Shown here: positions 8-5,811 of the stretch, piece after piece
Numbering within the stretch: the first letter of the stretch is position 1
Layout: every line of letters starts with the position of its first letter
DNA from: Cytophagales bacterium
GTDB taxonomy: Bacteria > Bacteroidota > Bacteroidia > Cytophagales > Cyclobacteriaceae
Assembly (NCBI GenBank): GCA_003500135.1
Contig: DNTA01000194.1
Location: 1-5,811 of the forward strand
Length of the DNA stretch: 5,811 nt
Direction: 5' to 3'
Translations under genes and position numbers: made by a program
The notes under the pieces: model-generated
What the model was told of the DNA's origin: nothing
What the model saw: only the letters and a program-made list of their open reading frames with translations
Databases searched by the model: none

Positions 8-73
8 TACCGCCAACGGTCTGGCTATGCGCAGTGTCCCGAAGGGCATTGCGTATAGGTATTGTTGCCACAC
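8..73 (-). repeat. attC-like hairpin site J0, closing cassette A
   Basis: On the given strand AAC (15-17) and GTT (64-66) enclose a hairpin. The stem 25-36 (CTATGCGCAGTG) pairs with 47-58 (CATTGCGTATAG), with G.T wobbles at 29/54 and 34/49. It is topped by CCC-GAA-GGG at 38-46. Between AAC and the stem the left side has 7 unpaired bases and the right side 5. The arm 8-17 begins the next unit, outside the window (GTTGGCGGTA in gene orientation). The arm 64-73 is the end of cassette A. The form AACA...CGTT in gene orientation matches attC architecture, but the boxes deviate from RYYYAAC/GTTRRRY. At about 52 bp between the core triplets it is the shortest of the four sites. Confidence 0.6.
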
Positions 74-80
74 GTATTTT

Positions 81-428
81 TTATTTTTTCCATTTGCTCA
101 CGTCAGCTGAATAGTAATTTCCAAATTGTTGTAAGCTGTCCTTTGGTAAATCGTAGTTCACCAAACTAGGGTCATCTGAAGTAATCACAATTTCAAAACG
201 TTCATTTTCGAATTGACCGATTGCGCCAATTCCCCTTTGCGAAGCGTTTCTTACAGTTGTTCCCTTTGGGATTACAAATAGAGTCGAGTCTGACGTAAAT
301 ATTCCAATTTCAACTTCTTTTTCAAGTCGTCCAAGTTCATGAGAAGGACTGTTTATCCAATTCAGACCATACCCAACAATGAAGAGGACGTTTAAAAGAA
401 TCGATATTCTAAAAATCCATTTTTTCAT
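81..428 (-). CDS. Hypothetical small membrane-anchored protein (115 aa), cassette A second gene
   Basis: I do not recognise this protein. Residues 5-22 form one hydrophobic segment after a basic start (MKKWIFR). There is no cysteine for a lipobox, so an uncleaved N-terminal anchor with the rest outside the cytoplasmic membrane is likely. Residues 40-90 are rich in short beta-type stretches (IGIFTSDSTLFVIPKGTTV, RFEIVITSDDPSLVNY). The tail is polar. The ATG starts one base after the TGA of the upstream YiiX-like gene, so the two are surely co-transcribed and probably translationally coupled. The TAA lies only about 14 nt before the end arm of the cassette. Coupling suggests a partner or immunity-like role for the hydrolase, but this is inference and nothing in the residues shows a catalytic function. 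Confidence 0.75.
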   Translation of the reverse strand: MKKWIFRISILLNVLFIVGYGLNWINSPSHELGRLEKEVEIGIFTSDSTLFVIPKGTTVRNASQRGIGAIGQFENERFEIVITSDDPSLVNYDLPKDSLQQFGNYYSADVSKWKK

Positions 429-429
429 A

Positions 430-1107
430 TCAGTTAGATTTCACCGTTATGAGTTTGTCTGAGTTGAACATTGCTGCAGGAGAAATTACTTTCTCGTCCA
501 TTGGAATGTTCTCTCCATATCGTTCCTGCATTTTCGCTTTCACAATTTCATTTGTCAAGTCAAAATCTGAAAGTTGTTCAAGCTGTCCAATTTCAATATC
601 AACCGCTTGTTTGTAGATTTTCCATACGAGTTCAGAGCAGTAAATTTTATCGTCCGACCATTCAAAGTATATGTCGTATGATTTTCCATTGAATTGCTCT
701 CCAATCTGTTTCATAATGGTTAAGGTCGATTTTGTCAACACTTCGTCAGCGTTTTCAAGTCGTTTAATTACATAATGTCCGTTCTCTCCGCGATTTATCC
801 AATCTTTTAGTGGAGTTAGTTTTACGGGTTGAACAGCTTCGTAAACGAGGAATTGTCCGTCATTTTCGTAAATAATTCCCATGTGACTATACTTGGAGTC
901 AGTCGCCAATTGAATCGCTTTACTTTGACTTGATTGTGAAGTTTGGAAAATAATATCTCCGTTTTGGATAGACTGTCCGAGTTTAAAATTCTCAAGTCGA
1001 ACAGCGTCCTTTTTTACTCCGTCAGCAAATTGATACATTTCAGTTCCCCAATAGACGAGGAAAGCTAAAATTCCAATTGTCAAAATTGTCAGGAGTATTT
1101 TCTTCAT
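430..1107 (-). CDS. YiiX-like permuted NlpC/P60 (papain-fold) hydrolase, membrane-anchored
   Basis: This 225-aa protein carries the signature of the YiiX/YebB-type permuted NlpC/P60 group, whose members act as cysteine peptidases, amidases or lipid-directed acyl hydrolases. Residues 4-20 form a hydrophobic anchor or signal segment. The fold begins at NGDIIF (49-54), followed by SHMGII with candidate catalytic His75, VYEA with Glu90, and the downstream nucleophile motif IYCSELVWKIY with Cys157. His before Cys is the circularly permuted order typical of this group, so the enzyme looks intact. Its place is probably the periplasm or outer face of the inner membrane. It is the first gene of cassette A. 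The ATG follows the cassette boundary by 22 nt with only an A-rich tract between, so there is no room for its own promoter. The substrate cannot be read from sequence. Confidence 0.85.
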   Translation of the reverse strand: MKKILLTILTIGILAFLVYWGTEMYQFADGVKKDAVRLENFKLGQSIQNGDIIFQTSQSSQSKAIQLATDSKYSHMGIIYENDGQFLVYEAVQPVKLTPLKDWINRGENGHYVIKRLENADEVLTKSTLTIMKQIGEQFNGKSYDIYFEWSDDKIYCSELVWKIYKQAVDIEIGQLEQLSDFDLTNEIVKAKMQERYGENIPMDEKVISPAAMFNSDKLITVKSN

Positions 1108-1120
1108 TCGTTTTTTTTAT

Positions 1121-1261
1121 GTGTGGCAACGTTCTACGCATAAAAAGCGTGACAGATTCGTCAGAATGACGGGTCTGTCCGCAGTGCGTACTGTGAATAT
1201 ATTGATAAATATTGAAATATGTGAAGTTACTGGCATGCTTGTTTATGTGATGTTATAGGTA
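1121..1261 (-). repeat. attC-like hairpin site J1, between cassettes B and A
   Basis: AAC (1128-1130) and GTT (1252-1254) enclose a long imperfect hairpin on the given strand. CATAAAAAGCGTG (1139-1151) pairs with 1234-1247, with one bulged base (1241) and a G.T wobble at 1149/1236. Inside sits a second, very regular hairpin: ACAGA (1152-1156) with TCTGT (1174-1178), and CGTCA (1159-1163) with TGACG (1167-1171) around a GAA loop. TACGCA (1135-1140) could pair with TGCGTA (1185-1190) as an alternative fold. The loop carries CTGTCCGC (1175-1182), also found in J3 and nearly in J2. In gene orientation the left arm ends cassette B and the right arm starts cassette A. No gene lies in 1108-1267. Confidence 0.6.
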
Positions 1262-1638
1262 GGCGCGCTAACCGAGCGCAAGTCTAAGAGCGTCAAGTTT
1301 TAGGATTAATATGTCAAGGTCTGCAAGGTATTTTCCACGAGCTGACCAGCCGTCAAAATAGTCCGATCTAAATTTAGCATTGACAAGTCTAGTCAAGAAA
1401 CGCCTCCAAGAAGTCGATTCATCATACGTGACAAATCCTGCAAGTGAGTCGAGTCGCAATGTTATGTCTTCAGGGCGATCTTGAGAATTGGCATCGGCAA
1501 TCACTTGTCTAAGGTTGTCCAGGAAAATCGGGAATTTTATTTTGATGTCCGAGTGTGCCTTAAGTTTTTCGGCTTCGGTAAGTTTCTTATCAATAAGCTG
1601 TCGTAATTCTGCGTTGTCCATGAAGCGCTTACCTATAA
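1130..1638 (-). mobile_element. Integron-like gene cassette B (single hypothetical gene)
   Basis: A compact unit of about 0.5 kb holding one gene. It opens in gene orientation with GTTATAGGTAAGCGC (1639 down to 1625) and closes with the inverted copy, which reads GTTATAGGTAGGCGC at 1252-1266. That is 14 of 15 matches, the one difference being at base 11. The coding start is 18 nt from the opening GTT, and the stop overlaps the base of the closing arm. One gene, no promoter and self-complementary ends are the properties of an integron cassette. Mobility is inferred. Confidence 0.55.
1268..1621 (-). CDS. Hypothetical helical soluble protein (117 aa), cassette B
   Basis: I do not recognise this protein. 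I chose the ATG at 1621 (MDNAELRQ...). The longer reading from 1648 begins with a TTG codon, and its nine extra residues are encoded by the cassette-end repeat itself. The protein has no signal peptide or membrane segment. It looks mostly alpha-helical and charged: an N-terminal amphipathic helix (AELRQLIDKKLTEAEKLKA), a middle part with FVTYDESTSWRRFLTRLVNAKF, and a leucine-rich C-terminal helix (ADLDILILKLDALRLAL). No metal-binding or catalytic motif is visible. The stop codon at 1268-1270 lies just inside the closing arm. The gene fills its unit, as cassette genes do. A small cytoplasmic protein with a protein-protein or regulatory role is possible, but this is a guess. Confidence 0.7.
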   Translation of the reverse strand: MDNAELRQLIDKKLTEAEKLKAHSDIKIKFPIFLDNLRQVIADANSQDRPEDITLRLDSLAGFVTYDESTSWRRFLTRLVNAKFRSDYFDGWSARGKYLADLDILILKLDALRLALG

Positions 1639-1770
1639 CGTTCCGCAAACAAACTGTCGTAGTGGCTTGTCAGCCTACTATCTTGTCCGCAGTAGTTAAA
1701 GTTAGTTGAAATTGATAAAATGTCAATATACAGATTTGCCACTATGCAGTTTTGTTTGTTGTTAGCAAAC
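1630..1770 (-). repeat. attC-like hairpin site J2, between cassettes C and B
   Basis: AAC (1637-1639) and GTT (1761-1763) enclose a hairpin on the given strand. The arm 1646-1666 (begins CAAACAAACTG, ends GTAGTGGC) pairs with 1738-1758 (begins GCCACTATGCAG), with single-base bulges and a G.T wobble at 1659/1745. A small inner hairpin joins CTACT (1675-1679) to AGTAG (1691-1695), and TTGTCCGC (1683-1690) matches the loop octamer of J1 and J3 but for its first base. The unpaired stretch next to AAC has 6 bases on the left and 2 on the right, the same asymmetry as at the other sites. The stretch 1622-1771 holds no gene. Confidence 0.6.
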
Positions 1771-2416
1771 GTTACTTCTTCTCAGATAGATAGATTTTCG
1801 CAATATTAAGCTCACCATTTTCAACGTTGAAAAAGTAATCAATACGTGCATTCTTATACTCAAATGGTGGATTAAGTTCTAATCTATATGAATACAGCAC
1901 TTGAATTGTATCGTTATTGATTGATAAAATCTTCGATTTGCCAAGTGCACGAGGTATTTCTCGGTTTACTTCATACCATTCTTTTATATTACGGAGTTCC
2001 ATCGGATCAAAATCATACATGAAAGACTCTTTCGTCATTTCTTGTACAAGCTGAATTCTTGAGATGTCCCAAAACTTGCCATGAGCTACATACCAGTTTT
2101 CGATTTTGTCTAACTCGAGGCTATCTTGCCAATTTTCATATAAAAACGAGAATGGCCCAAATGAGATTGTGTCGGCAGACAAAGACATTAAGTCAAATGA
2201 CACGTCATAAATTACAGCGGCCATGTCTGCGTTATAGGTTTCTTCACAATTTAGTTTTCCATATTGCGAGTCTATTTCAACATTCCTAGAAATTGGGCCA
2301 AAGGCATCCCGAAAAAAGACTGGAATGTAGATAATAAAAGCAATCAATAGACCGAGAAATACAATTGTACTTATAATACATCCTTTTTTCACGTCCTCAG
2401 AAGTAATGTTTGCTAA
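1639..2416 (-). mobile_element. Integron-like gene cassette C (single membrane-anchored protein)
   Basis: One gene in a unit of about 0.8 kb. In gene orientation it opens with GTTAGCAAACATTACTTCT (2417 down to 2399). Its closing arm reads GTTAGCAAACGTTACTTCT on the given strand at 1761-1779. This is the longest end match of the window, 18 of 19, again differing only at base 11. The closing arm overlaps the stop codon and the last codons of the gene. The leader before the GTG start is 25 nt. Mobility is inferred from this architecture. Confidence 0.55.
1772..2392 (-). CDS. Hypothetical membrane-anchored protein (206 aa), cassette C
   Basis: I do not recognise this protein. It starts at a GTG preceded by CTGAGGAC, which contains an AGGA that may serve as a ribosome binding site. 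The basic start (MKKG) and a hydrophobic run at about residues 5-27 indicate one N-terminal membrane anchor. The remaining part of about 180 residues would face the periplasm. It has acidic, aromatic-rich segments (LENWQDSLELDKIENWYVAHGKFWDI is one such region) and ends with a probable beta-hairpin region (IDYFFNVENGELNIAKIYLS). No catalytic motif is seen. The stop codon sits inside the closing arm of the cassette, so the gene and the recombination-like site overlap by a few codons. The neighbouring cassettes are unrelated, so context does not reveal its function. Confidence 0.75.
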   Translation of the reverse strand: MKKGCIISTIVFLGLLIAFIIYIPVFFRDAFGPISRNVEIDSQYGKLNCEETYNADMAAVIYDVSFDLMSLSADTISFGPFSFLYENWQDSLELDKIENWYVAHGKFWDISRIQLVQEMTKESFMYDFDPMELRNIKEWYEVNREIPRALGKSKILSINNDTIQVLYSYRLELNPPFEYKNARIDYFFNVENGELNIAKIYLSEKK

Positions 2417-2543
2417 CGGCTCGGCTATGCGTAGTGCGGGATTTCAAAGCACTTCACTGTCCGCCTACCGTAAAGTTTATTTAATGTAATTACTTTCATA
2501 TCGGCACTTTCCCCCGCATTACGTATAGCCATTGTTGTGCTTT
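2408..2543 (-). repeat. attC-like hairpin site J3, between the R-M operon and cassette C
   Basis: AAC (2415-2417) and GTT (2534-2536) enclose the cleanest stem of the set. 2423-2440 (GGCTATGCGTAGTGCGGG) pairs along its full 18 bp with 2513-2530, the only irregularities being G.T wobbles at 2429/2524 and 2434/2519. The stem is close in sequence to that of J0, with wobbles at the same two places. The loop of about 70 bases carries CTGTCCGC (2457-2464) and an AT-rich tract. Read in gene orientation the site begins GCACAACAATGGC and ends GAGCCGTTAGCA, which resembles known attC ends (…AACAA / GCGTTAG…). It is the 3' site of the R-M unit and abuts the start of cassette C. Confidence 0.65.
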
Positions 2544-2636: not shown

Positions 2637-3737
2637 TTACATCGCAGAAATTATATTGTTCCACTCCTTTTTATGTTCAAATTTCAGAGCTGTATCATTT
2701 TCGATAAGGTTGACATATTTCTCAATGAACTCTGATGTATCGGTAAGCAGACGCAAATAATACTTCAATGAACTTGATAGTCCATTAACTATGACATGAC
2801 AGCCATGAATGTTTTTAATTCTTTCTATTTCAGCATCAATATTACCCTGTTCACTTTCCAAAACGTTTGCAGTTGACAGTAGATAATATCTATTTACCTG
2901 AGTAGTTTTAAATTTTTCAAATGCATCCTTTACTAATTGAGCTGTTATTGGTATTCCATGTTTTACTTCAACTGCTTCAAAAGCTCTATTCTTTTCGTCA
3001 ACAATGTCAATATCTCCGATTCTACCACTGCGAGAGTCAGCAGAAGTATGGCTTTCAATTTCAAGTAATGTTTTGTTCTCGAATCGTTTTGCTTCATGAA
3101 TTAAACATTGATATGCTGCGTAAAGAGCAAGTACAGGTAATCTAGAAGCCCCTTCGGCAGAATACTTGGTCTCGAAATGTTTATTGAGTAGAAAAACAAT
3201 TGTGGAAATTGGAAGATTTAACGGTTTCGCTAAATCAATTTCTTGACTATTTCTCTTGATTATGAGGCCTTGAAATAGAAAGCTGAGTATTTTTTCTAGA
3301 TCTTTTCCTGCTTGGATTTTATCAATTGTGAAAAGAAAGGCAGATTTCAAAGAGTCAGGACGAATAGCCCCTGAATATTTAGAATCATATGGTACTTTTT
3401 GTTCAAGCGAACGAGTCAGCCACCCACTTTCAGCCATTGACGGGAATTTGACCTCCTTTAAAAATGGCGTTACATATTTGGTGTCAAAAGTTCTCCCTGA
3501 ATAGCCACCATCAATACTCGTTTGGTGCTTGCGAATATCTTGTGAAGGGTACAGAGTCTTGTACACTATACTTGTTAATACGACAGTAAGAACTGCCTTG
3601 GAAGACTCTGAGCGGCTTAATATTTCAGATAAATTGTCTTGAACTTTTTGATCTAAATCCGACTTAATTTTGTCATCCGAACCAACGATAGCCATTGATT
3701 CGCTATATACTTTCTTTAAAAATTTTTCTGGTTCCAT
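2637..3737 (-). CDS. Type II restriction endonuclease, PD-(D/E)XK, possibly SacI-like
   Basis: A 366-aa protein directly after the methyltransferase. Its ATG shares the A of the TAA stop (TAATG), so translation is probably coupled. Residues 239-261 hold a PD-(D/E)XK nuclease core: RIGDIDIVDE (candidate metal ligand Asp242 or Asp244), then EAVEVKHG with Glu257 and Lys259. An upstream helix with HEAKRFE (214-220) may add an acidic ligand. The segment GGYSGRTFDTKYVTPFLKE (77-95) followed by MAESGWLTRSLEQ (101-113) resembles, from memory, the SacI family of restriction enzymes. I could not run a search, so the family is moderate confidence and the target site is unknown. It would cut DNA not modified by the neighbouring enzyme. 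No frameshift is seen. The gene ends about 100 nt before site J3. Confidence 0.75.
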   Translation of the reverse strand: MEPEKFLKKVYSESMAIVGSDDKIKSDLDQKVQDNLSEILSRSESSKAVLTVVLTSIVYKTLYPSQDIRKHQTSIDGGYSGRTFDTKYVTPFLKEVKFPSMAESGWLTRSLEQKVPYDSKYSGAIRPDSLKSAFLFTIDKIQAGKDLEKILSFLFQGLIIKRNSQEIDLAKPLNLPISTIVFLLNKHFETKYSAEGASRLPVLALYAAYQCLIHEAKRFENKTLLEIESHTSADSRSGRIGDIDIVDEKNRAFEAVEVKHGIPITAQLVKDAFEKFKTTQVNRYYLLSTANVLESEQGNIDAEIERIKNIHGCHVIVNGLSSSLKYYLRLLTDTSEFIEKYVNLIENDTALKFEHKKEWNNIISAM

Positions 3738-4960
3738 TACTTTTTTCGTGCTTTTAAAAGCTGTTCTTTTATCTGTTTACCTACAGCCTTAATCATTGGT
3801 ATAGCCACGGAATTCCCAATTTGTTTATAAAGCTCACCTCTGTTGTTGATTAAGCGGAATTTATCTGGAAAGCCCATAATTCTATAGCACTCCTGTATTG
3901 TTAGTTTTCTTACCTCACCATCATGGAGTATCCAAAATCGTCCTGATGATTCTTGTGAGGGTAGTGCTGGGTGAACTCCTTCTGTGGAATAAATTCGATT
4001 GGGCTGCTTATGAACACGGGAGAGGTGTTCTGTACCTGGACGAACTCCTGCTTTTCTGATTGCTTTATTTCTATAACCTGCGAATATTAGACCTGAGTCC
4101 TGTCTCTTTTGGTCTTCGAGGATTGTATATGGTTCATTCAGAAATTCAAATTCATTTTCGTCATCAAGAAATTCTTTTAAAATTGGCTTAGGTTGTTTTT
4201 CAAGCTTGGAAAAGTCAAATTTGCTTGATTTGTGACCTATTATTATTATTCTCTCTCTGTTTTGCGGAACTCCAAAATCGGAAGCATTTAGTACTTGTTT
4301 TGAGACAATGTAACCAAGCTCTTCAAGATGTTGAATGATTGTAGTTAGTGTTCTTTTCTTATCATGATAAACCAAGTGTTTCACATTTTCTAGAAAAACA
4401 ACTTCGGGTTTTCGCTTTTCAATTATTTCGAAGACATGGTATATAAGGGTCCCACGAGTGTCTTCAAATCCCTTCATTTTTCCTGAAATACTAAAAGGCT
4501 GACAAGGAAATCCTGCACATAGAATGTCGTGCTTTGGAACGATGTTGATATCCATTTTAGTAATATCACCAAATGGAACTTCTCCAAAATTCAGTTCATA
4601 TGCCCTTTGGGCATGATAATTAAACTCTGAAGTAAAAACGCATTTTCCTCCTAGTTCCTGTAACGGAATTCTAAACCCCCCGATTCCTGCAAACAAATCT
4701 ATGAAAGTGAATTCAGGATTTTCAGGGCTTGGAAATGGAACATCCCATTTTATCGGGAGAAGAGCTTGTAGTTCAGGCTCAGCTGCAATACTTAAATCTT
4801 CATTTATTTGATTGTAGTATGAAACAGCTTTTGCTTTATAGGACTTTGATACTCCATTTGTGTGGTTTTGCAAAAAATGTGTGAGAAAGGCCAATCCTTC
4901 GGCATTTCCGTTTAACGTATCGACTTCAAGCTTTTGTCTCAATTTTGAATATTCTACCAT
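3737..4960 (-). CDS. DNA (cytosine-5) methyltransferase of a type II R-M system
   Basis: A 407-aa enzyme that transfers a methyl group from S-adenosylmethionine to C5 of cytosine in the target site, protecting host DNA from the partner nuclease. The conserved motifs come in canonical order: motif I FIDLFAGIGGFR (86-97) for cofactor binding, motif IV GFPCQPFS with catalytic Cys153, motif VI ENVK (191-194), motif VIII QNRERIIIIG (233-242), motif IX RKLTIQECYRIMGFP (351-365), and motif X IGNSVAIP (381-388). The target recognition region lies between about 245 and 345. It ends with an ESSGRFWI segment, and its specificity cannot be read by eye. An N-terminal extension of some 80 residues precedes motif I. 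All catalytic residues are present. The gene starts two bases after the controller stop and overlaps the nuclease start by one base. Confidence 0.95.
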   Translation of the reverse strand: MVEYSKLRQKLEVDTLNGNAEGLAFLTHFLQNHTNGVSKSYKAKAVSYYNQINEDLSIAAEPELQALLPIKWDVPFPSPENPEFTFIDLFAGIGGFRIPLQELGGKCVFTSEFNYHAQRAYELNFGEVPFGDITKMDINIVPKHDILCAGFPCQPFSISGKMKGFEDTRGTLIYHVFEIIEKRKPEVVFLENVKHLVYHDKKRTLTTIIQHLEELGYIVSKQVLNASDFGVPQNRERIIIIGHKSSKFDFSKLEKQPKPILKEFLDDENEFEFLNEPYTILEDQKRQDSGLIFAGYRNKAIRKAGVRPGTEHLSRVHKQPNRIYSTEGVHPALPSQESSGRFWILHDGEVRKLTIQECYRIMGFPDKFRLINNRGELYKQIGNSVAIPMIKAVGKQIKEQLLKARKK

Positions 4961-4962
4961 AA

Positions 4963-5289
4963 CTAAAAGTCTATTTTACCTTGTTCGTGCTTTTTAAGTC
5001 TTAAGTATTTAGCTTTTTCTTCTGCTAATTTTAAGACCTCTCTGGGTTCTTCATATGAATAAATAAGTTCAGCAACAAGTTCACTACAAAATTCACATTC
5101 AAGCTCTCTAAGATTTAGATCAAAAGCATCGGCAAGCTTTGGGAGTATATCCTTAGGAATACTTCTTTTACCGTTTTCAATTTTAGAAAGAGTAGATTGG
5201 TCAATATCTAACGCTGCGGCTAATTTTGTTAGCGTCATTCCTGAACTGGTTCTCAATGAATGTATATACTCGCCTATAGTTTCTTTCAT
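4963..5289 (-). CDS. XRE-family HTH controller of the R-M operon (C-protein-like)
   Basis: A 108-aa DNA-binding protein. Residues 6-62 form an XRE/Cro-C1 helix-turn-helix domain: GEYIHSLRTSSGMTLTKLA leads into the scaffold helix, and DQSTLSKIENGKR (30-42) is the recognition helix. Residues 63-108 (ECEFCSELVAEL...) form a short helical tail that could support dimerisation. R-M controllers of this size and type delay nuclease expression until the methyltransferase has acted. Here the gene is first in the operon, two bases before the methyltransferase, so it could tune the whole set including itself. A perfect 16-bp palindrome 18 bases upstream of the ATG is a good candidate for its operator. 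It is somewhat longer than many C proteins, so a plain autorepressor is an alternative. Confidence 0.88.
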   Translation of the reverse strand: MKETIGEYIHSLRTSSGMTLTKLAAALDIDQSTLSKIENGKRSIPKDILPKLADAFDLNLRELECEFCSELVAELIYSYEEPREVLKLAEEKAKYLRLKKHEQGKIDF

Positions 5290-5386: not shown

Positions 5387-5450
5387 AAACAGGCTCTTTT
5401 GCTTGCGAAGCGTAAGCCTTTTGCGATGGGGCAAGCAAATGTGCCTGTTT
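5387..5450. repeat. Large imperfect hairpin upstream of the R-M operon
   Basis: AAACAGGC (5387-5394) and TTGCTTGC (5399-5406) pair with GCAAGCAA (5431-5438) and GCCTGTTT (5443-5450). They are separated by a symmetric 4-base internal loop and capped by a 24-base loop. It lies between the R-M promoter and the insertion sequence end. It lacks the AAC...GTT layout and the arms of the four cassette sites, so I treat it as a different repeat, although GCGTTGG follows it at 5453-5459. Its role is unknown. It could also act as a terminator or a relic of a cassette boundary. Confidence 0.5.
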
Positions 5451-5470: not shown

Positions 5471-5811
5471 TGTCACGTCCTAAAATACGGCTACATGTTA
5501 TTTACTGAATTATGCCACATTTTTGTGGATTAAGTTTGGTGTTTTATAGTCTAAAGATAGGTGCAATCTTTTAGAGTTGTATAGGTTGATTGCGTTTTTA
5601 GTTGCCTTCTTAGCTTGAGCGATCGAGTAGAAGGTTTGATCGAGATAAAACTCGTCTTTTAAGATACCGTTTACTCGTTCAGCAATAGCATTTTCGTAGC
5701 AGTGATTTTCTTGGGTCATACTGATATCGATTTTCTTTTTTTTCAGTTCATTGGTATAGACGTTTGAGCAGTACTGGATACCTCTGTCAGAATGATGAAT
5801 AAGTCCATTGA
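5471..5811 (-). mobile_element. IS3-family insertion sequence, 3' part (runs off the window)
   Basis: The orfB-type transposase fragment identifies the family. Downstream of its stop the likely element end is at 5471, where the given strand reads TGTCACGTCCTAAAATACGG. IS3-family elements end in TG...CA, and the terminal repeat usually lies a few tens of bases beyond orfB. The other end is outside the window, so neither the inverted-repeat match nor a target duplication can be checked. Confidence 0.65.
5510..5811 (-). CDS. IS3-family transposase orfB, C-terminal fragment
   Basis: The reading frame stays open from the right edge of the window to TAA at 5510-5512. The gene is therefore cut by the window and does not start at the internal ATG at 5719. 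The visible 99 or so residues are the end of an rve-type DDE integrase domain. NGLIHHSDRGIQYCS contains the second catalytic Asp, and ENAIAERVNGILKDEF contains the catalytic Glu, separated by exactly 35 residues as is typical for IS3 enzymes. The tail YNSKRLHLSLDYKTP is the usual conserved C-terminus. It catalyses cut-out and insertion of the element together with a frameshift-linked orfA that must lie further right. No defect is seen in the part available. Confidence 0.92.
   Translation of the reverse strand, partial: NGLIHHSDRGIQYCSNVYTNELKKKKIDISMTQENHCYENAIAERVNGILKDEFYLDQTFYSIAQAKKATKNAINLYNSKRLHLSLDYKTPNLIHKNVA

Follow-up and report, generated by a model that had tools for sequence, protein, structure and literature searches.

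The 5,811-nucleotide stretch examined here (the window) is the entire contig DNTA01000194.1 of a Cytophagales bacterium of the family Cyclobacteriaceae (assembly GCA_003500135.1), a draft genome of 4.3 Mb in 332 contigs that is 94% complete. It holds four attC-like hairpin sites, J0 to J3, which alternate with three units, one of two genes and two of a single gene, all encoded on the minus strand. This layout agrees with an initial annotation made from the letters alone: all four sites, reading AACA...CGTT in gene orientation, are present. The annotation had considered the arrangement to be a cassette array, and the evidence reviewed below makes it highly probable that the window preserves part of an integron-like array, whose units carry their own hairpin and arms and were likely moved by a XerA/IntI-like tyrosine recombinase. 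The sites, with their scores against a model (R1) derived from seven sites found in this draft genome, and the cassettes, whose exact cut point would be G|TT by analogy with integrons, are as follows.

15..66, minus strand: J0, short attC-like site of 52 nt, AACA...CGTT; R1 33.4 bits
17..1129, minus strand: cassette A, two genes, from the TT of J1 to the G of J0; arms of 7/7 pairs, A.C, then 2 pairs
1128..1254, minus strand: J1, attC-like site of 127 nt, stem partly degenerate by eye; missed by R1 at E<=5
1130..1638, minus strand: cassette B, one gene; arms of 7/7 pairs, A.C, then 4 pairs
1637..1763, minus strand: J2, attC-like site of 127 nt; R1 21.3 bits, E 0.029
1639..2416, minus strand: cassette C, one gene; arms of 7/7 pairs, A.C, then 8 pairs
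2415..2536, minus strand: J3, attC-like site of 122 nt, the best-conserved copy in the window; R1 119.1 bits, not an independent score, J3 being one of the seven sites behind the model

The arms are the most telling feature of these units. Each complete unit had been claimed to begin and end with its own inverted arm, and this was borne out in 3/3 units, with seven of seven complementary bases next to GTT/AAC and then an A opposite a C; a run of at least 7 bases arose in 0.6% of 20,000 random arm pairings. Among 146 units from a wider collection, which includes repeated cassettes and misplaced site ends, the start and end of one unit share a complementary run of at least 5 bases in 63.7%; the figure is 4.9% when both sides of a single site are compared and 2.0% when arms are paired at random; in a set thinned to distinct arms, at least 5 pairs in a row were found in 77/121 units versus 5/171. 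The complementarity joins the bases after the GTT of one site to those before the AAC of the next, and is thus a property of the unit and not of the site. The arm consensus consists of GTT, a purine (180/183), six free bases, and an A (179/183) opposite a C (139/183). The R' box of integrons, GTTRRRY, is matched by GTT and the purine only, as had been noted for the window, and the next three positions fit R, R and Y in 95, 98 and 74 of the 183 sites. For the unit upstream of J3, none of the window's 40 GTTs provides a start arm matching the left arm of J3.

A search for the same hairpin in other genomes, suggested by the initial annotation, revealed arrays of such sites in related genomes, several of which carry long arrays with all sites on one strand. 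Model R1 matched 36/59 related genomes at E<=0.01 and, across the order, 80/243 genomes and 51/94 sampled genera at E<=1e-6 (the window's genome counted in both cases), and named records carrying such sites are nearly all Bacteroidota. The single-strand folding energies of the window's sites are weak (z of -0.43 for J3, -2.18 for J2, -1.91 for J1 and -0.87 for J0), so that folding energy alone is no proof of these sites. The pattern of change across 53 sites, in an alignment fitted to the structure, is more informative: paired cells amount to 95.6% versus 58.7% in shuffles, and covariation reaches 0.825 versus 0.177 in shuffles and at most 0.098 when the alignment is slid. Two-sided changes occur in 14/14 pairs versus 12.3 in shuffles, and further pair types are as numerous as in shuffles (35 versus 34.9). 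A separate locus (L026, contig C64, 6410-12062) carries more sites with a different stem type, one of them flanked by pieces of tyrosine recombinases.

The link between such arrays and a recombinase, whose lack the initial annotation had named as telling against a cassette array, is seen in many related genomes. Among seven arrays read by script, three begin on the 5' side with a tyrosine recombinase gene that points the same way as the array, and the other four meet a contig end there; relatives of one of these recombinases at E<=1e-40 are present in 120/243 genomes of the order. Behind 40 recombinase genes, 128 sites lie on the strand of the gene, 7 on the opposite strand, and 1 remained after a shuffle (a single draw within 60-base blocks); a site is present in 29/33 of the loci in which 1 kb or more of sequence follows the gene. 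These loci come from 39 genomes, 38 having been taken down the relatives' ranking and two (G249, G228) added as having sites, and removal of the latter leaves 121 sites and 27/31 loci. Left out were the query, two partial genes (G080, G240), two with stops (G110:C33, G223), a second copy (G113:C219) and, with no stated reason, G136, G167 and G064. In an independent scan of database genomes, 44 Bacteroidota loci have 62 sites following the gene, a single site on the opposite strand and 3 sites upstream of it; 21/33 of those with 1 kb or more of sequence after the gene carry a site, and 36 loci of other or unnamed phyla have 2 sites; in this partition an Oceanirhabdus record (L212) was put in Bacteroidota by guess, and a record named only 'bacterium' (L200) was placed with the 36 loci. 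Clear arrays were found in, among others, Flavobacterium enshiense DK69, Algibacter onchidii, Rufibacter sp. SYSU D00344 and Seonamhaeicola aphaedonensis. Distant recombinases were also encountered in 17 phage records.

An insertion point analogous to attI can be recognized in these relatives, from which, and not from the window, it is known. When the arm of the first site was used as a probe for the start of the first cassette, up to 1.5 kb behind the recombinase gene, an attI-like point was found in 42 of the 50 loci having a site, with 1.03 expected for shuffled arms. In many cases, as judged by eye, this point comes after a motif resembling GCGTATATAnACAA|GTT that sits in a short inverted repeat.

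Single units also recur with other neighbours, their identity ending at GTT, and the absence of such unit polymorphism was the other observation that the initial annotation had held to be damaging. In one genome (G144), a cassette of 565-577 bp is present at five or more places; two of its copies are 100% identical, the identity ending at most 4 bases from GTT on both sides, and one copy lies directly behind the attI-like point. A first cassette common to two further genomes (G082 and G069) is 97.6% identical over 1,059 nt from the GTT onwards and lies behind different leaders. Among 100 cassette alignments within one genome, each pair being counted in both directions here and below, a unit border coincides with the start in 72, the end in 59 and both in 41. 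The recombination of cassettes is inferred from these patterns. The plasmid pPP2 of Persicobacter psychrovividus (L277, L291) carries a super-array of 41 one-strand sites in 57 kb, mostly with hypothetical proteins.

For three of the recombinases that head the arrays, the best curated family is NF040815 (XerA-like), with 210-221 bits at a cut-off of 220, while the integron integrase family TIGR02249 gives 189-195 bits, in two stretches, at a cut-off of 265. Alignment of one of them with IntI4 (2a3v) places 61 IntI4 residues (182-242) opposite 18 query residues (312-329). By sequence, the array recombinase is not a member of the IntI family, falling below the cut-off or lacking the IntI-specific insertion; this comparison rests on three proteins from related arrays, and the insertion gap on one. 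In a tree of 88 rows, the array recombinases form one group (support 93/95), apart from IntI (100/100) and two Xer rows, and including some relatives from other phyla; the tree holds only five of twelve IntI loci and 38 of the 80 database loci, two of which were dropped for stops. The predicted structure of an array recombinase (predicted local distance difference test, pLDDT, 84.8; predicted template modelling score, pTM, 0.60) matches IntI4 and Xer proteins best, IntI4 being the best solved match by Foldseek. Many array recombinases have an additional small N-terminal domain with a conserved W...W motif (e.g., L195 10010-10200), and a Pfam scan of two long ones listed no match in their N-terminal part.

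Several observations weigh against an integron-like array served by this recombinase. In 22 cassette alignments between genomes, a unit border is met at the start in 5, at the end in 11 and at both in only 1. Where 1 kb or more of sequence follows the recombinase gene, 4/33 loci lack a site, as do 12/33 of the corresponding Bacteroidota loci of the database scan. The alignment behind model R1 was fitted to the structure, and two of five covariation measures, that of two-sided changes among them, were reached by shuffles (19 and 283 of 500). Relatives of the recombinase from outside Bacteroidota that lack such sites nest inside the array group of the tree; probably they belong to another mobile element. 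No such sites lie behind four of these loci (L238, L242, L250, L255), and plasmids of Rhizobium/Sinorhizobium carry relatives of the recombinase as well. Finally, a search of the window's genome for relatives of the array recombinase at E<=1e-40 gave none. Tyrosine recombinases are found at six places in this genome: the five looked at are three fragments and two genes taken for XerC and XerD by length and place in the tree, and the sixth is a frame on contig C126.

An ordinary IntI integron with unusual attC sites, or a cluster of attC sites lacking an integron integrase (CALIN) derived from one, would share the layout and the AAC/GTT ends of the sites, and two further facts speak in its favor: IntI4 is the closest solved structure, and genuine IntI genes occur widely elsewhere in the phylum, in other classes, where 85/296 genomes exceed the cut-off. 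Nevertheless, we consider this explanation quite improbable. The genome of the window has only sub-cut-off matches to IntI; the 86 genomes with an IntI match at E<=1e-60 include none of its family or order and one of its class; and the bit scores, the missing insertion and the disregard of GTTRRRY described above all speak against it. The initial annotation had left the choice between a divergent chromosomal integron and a related undescribed system, and it is the second half of this proposal that fits best, membership of the IntI family not being sustained.

Two other explanations, which would deny the hairpins a role in cassette recombination, appear to us less probable still, and to a similar degree. 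The hairpins could be small, non-autonomous transposon-like repeats with incidental genes between them, as a repeated site family with many copies scattered or alone on a contig might suggest; such repeats, however, would not be expected to leave arms that belong to the unit rather than to the site, a strand ratio of 128 to 7, many copies identical across gene and site and ending at GTT, or an insertion point behind a recombinase. Alternatively, they could act as RNA, as terminators or processing sites, since they fold and sit between co-directional genes. One-sided changes (mostly of the G.U type) are nonetheless rare, at 13 cells versus 230 two-sided cells, which suits a DNA hairpin better than an RNA; in addition, no RNA purpose is evident for unit-specific arms, and an Rfam scan of the window produced no match near a gathering score.

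The integron-like cassette array thus remains the preferred reading, and of the structural features tested, all are integron-like apart from two, the IntI-specific domain and the GTTRRRY box. In this scheme, an excised circular cassette would join both arms round the hairpin into one long stem, composed of 7 bp next to GTT, the conserved A.C mismatch and the inner stem. The recombinase would act on this folded single-stranded site, cutting it at G|TT for a strand exchange with the GTT of the attI-like point that follows the recombinase gene, and new cassettes would enter at the head of the array, from which they could be lost or copied elsewhere. Since gene, attI and array all point in the same direction, transcripts started on the recombinase side could extend into the first cassettes. 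The window itself, in the whole of its contig, carries no recombinase, and there is no sequence left for the extension to the right that the initial annotation had suggested. Arrays were found in the draft, but no intact recombinase of the array type; the window's array may therefore have been left behind on its own, or be served by a recombinase located elsewhere.

Comparison with integrons, platforms that collect genes and are known for their part in the spread of antibiotic resistance, highlights both likeness and divergence. Tandem co-oriented cassettes of mostly one gene each, sites ending in AAC/GTT, cassette ends complementary within the cassette, an insertion point adjoining the recombinase gene and long arrays of mostly unknown genes are common to both. 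In contrast, the array recombinase lacks the IntI-specific insertion, belongs to another tree group and is encoded in the direction of the array, and the end box of the window type is GTT-R-N6-A with an A.C mismatch instead of GTTRRRY, on a long, strongly covarying stem. Among known recombinases, the closest family is that of XerA, XerC and XerD, with the NCBIfam entry NF040815 ('site-specific tyrosine recombinase/integron integrase'). XerC and XerD act on dif-type sites in chromosome upkeep, whereas the array recombinases head cassette arrays and in many cases carry the extra N-terminal domain. The passages of the IntegronFinder 2.0 literature drawn upon here name Salinibacter ruber as the one member of Bacteroidetes proper with a complete integron (PMC9024848), and describe how IntI is detected by means of a profile for its specific domain (PMC9668308); such detection would miss a system in which this domain is lacking.

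The rAID arrays of gut Bacteroidales present a further parallel. As described in the portion of a preprint considered here, they combine a tyrosine recombinase with co-oriented short immunity genes and conserved intergenic motifs, and the word 'integron' is absent from its main text as far as that portion extends (PMC12247911). Relatives of the window's array place a recombinase upstream of two or more co-directional short genes, although the window itself holds none. On a Parabacteroides plasmid with cargo of the type VI secretion system (T6SS) immunity type, a locus that we take to be rAID, unit-specific arms can be seen by eye (for example, CATTATCAACC at a unit start and GGTTGATAAC at its end), and the recombinase falls inside the array group of the tree. 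Because of these two features, rAID looks like a short-site branch of the array system, judging from this one locus read by eye. It differs in its sites, which are of about 45 nt and end in ATTA rather than GTT, in its orphan T6SS immunity cargo and in its order, Bacteroidales; the site finder detected none of the short sites of the plasmid.

A resistance plasmid may be compared as well. On pHH1107 (L278, 4025-6130), a recombinase annotated as TnpF, shorter than its relatives and within the array group of the tree, precedes tet(X3). By eye, a GTT-R-N6-A motif stands in front of tet(X3), and the DNA after this gene resembles the left part of an array site; the site finder reported no site in this region. 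The mobilization of tet(X) by XerD is a question raised in PMC7473080, where, in the part of that work considered, xerD lies in the opposite direction. Taken together, we lean towards the view that Bacteroidota harbor a second widespread integron system parallel to that of IntI, in which a XerA-like recombinase would take up cassettes at an attI behind its gene through recognition of folded hairpins marked by A.C mismatches. Such a system would unite chromosomal arrays, plasmid super-arrays, gut rAID and the tet(X3)-side recombinase, and would do without the IntI-specific domain, which has been regarded as essential for integron recombination. No description of this system as an integron was recognized in the literature covered, to which the original 2019 rAID paper does not belong. 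If the system works, it would constitute a gene-capture platform proper to Bacteroidota; it would explain the change of cargo in rAID arrays, render interpretable the 'xerD' long noted beside tet(X) genes, and provide a natural point of comparison for the way in which folded DNA became the substrate of a Xer recombinase.

The genes carried by the window's cassettes are listed below.

81..428, minus strand: 115-amino-acid protein, cassette A; no Pfam family
430..1107, minus strand: YaeF/YiiX-type permuted papain-like amidase (C92), 225 amino acids, cassette A; PF05708, E 1.8e-32
1268..1648, minus strand: 126-amino-acid frame from TTG, cassette B, an ATG at about 1622, inside the cassette, being the likelier start; no Pfam family over cut-off
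1772..2392, minus strand: 206-amino-acid protein, cassette C; no Pfam family

The cargo thus comprises one C92 amidase and three proteins without a Pfam family over cut-off, and no T6SS immunity family was seen in the Pfam scan. In the wider collection there is no dominant type of cargo: 62 Pfam families were found among 96/114 distinct cassette proteins, each in at most three, and PADLOC hits on cassettes are scattered. The longest frame runs on the opposite strand in 7 of 175 units, and a frame of 60 amino acids is lacking in 9. A Flagellimonas plasmid (L276) carries a gene of the dihydrofolate reductase family between two sites (6896-7729, minus strand), adjoining a Tn3 transposase and erm(F).

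Upstream of J3, the minus strand encodes a C5-cytosine methyltransferase, a 366-amino-acid protein without a Pfam family and an XRE-type protein (2637-5289), in the gene order of a type II restriction-modification unit. An inverted repeat of 20 nt, with arms 24 nt apart, occupies positions 5387-5450 and is not clearly of the same site family. At the end of the contig lies the terminal part of an rve-type transposase gene (5510-5809, minus strand), inferred to be IS3-like, whose presence is the likely reason for the break in the assembly at this point.

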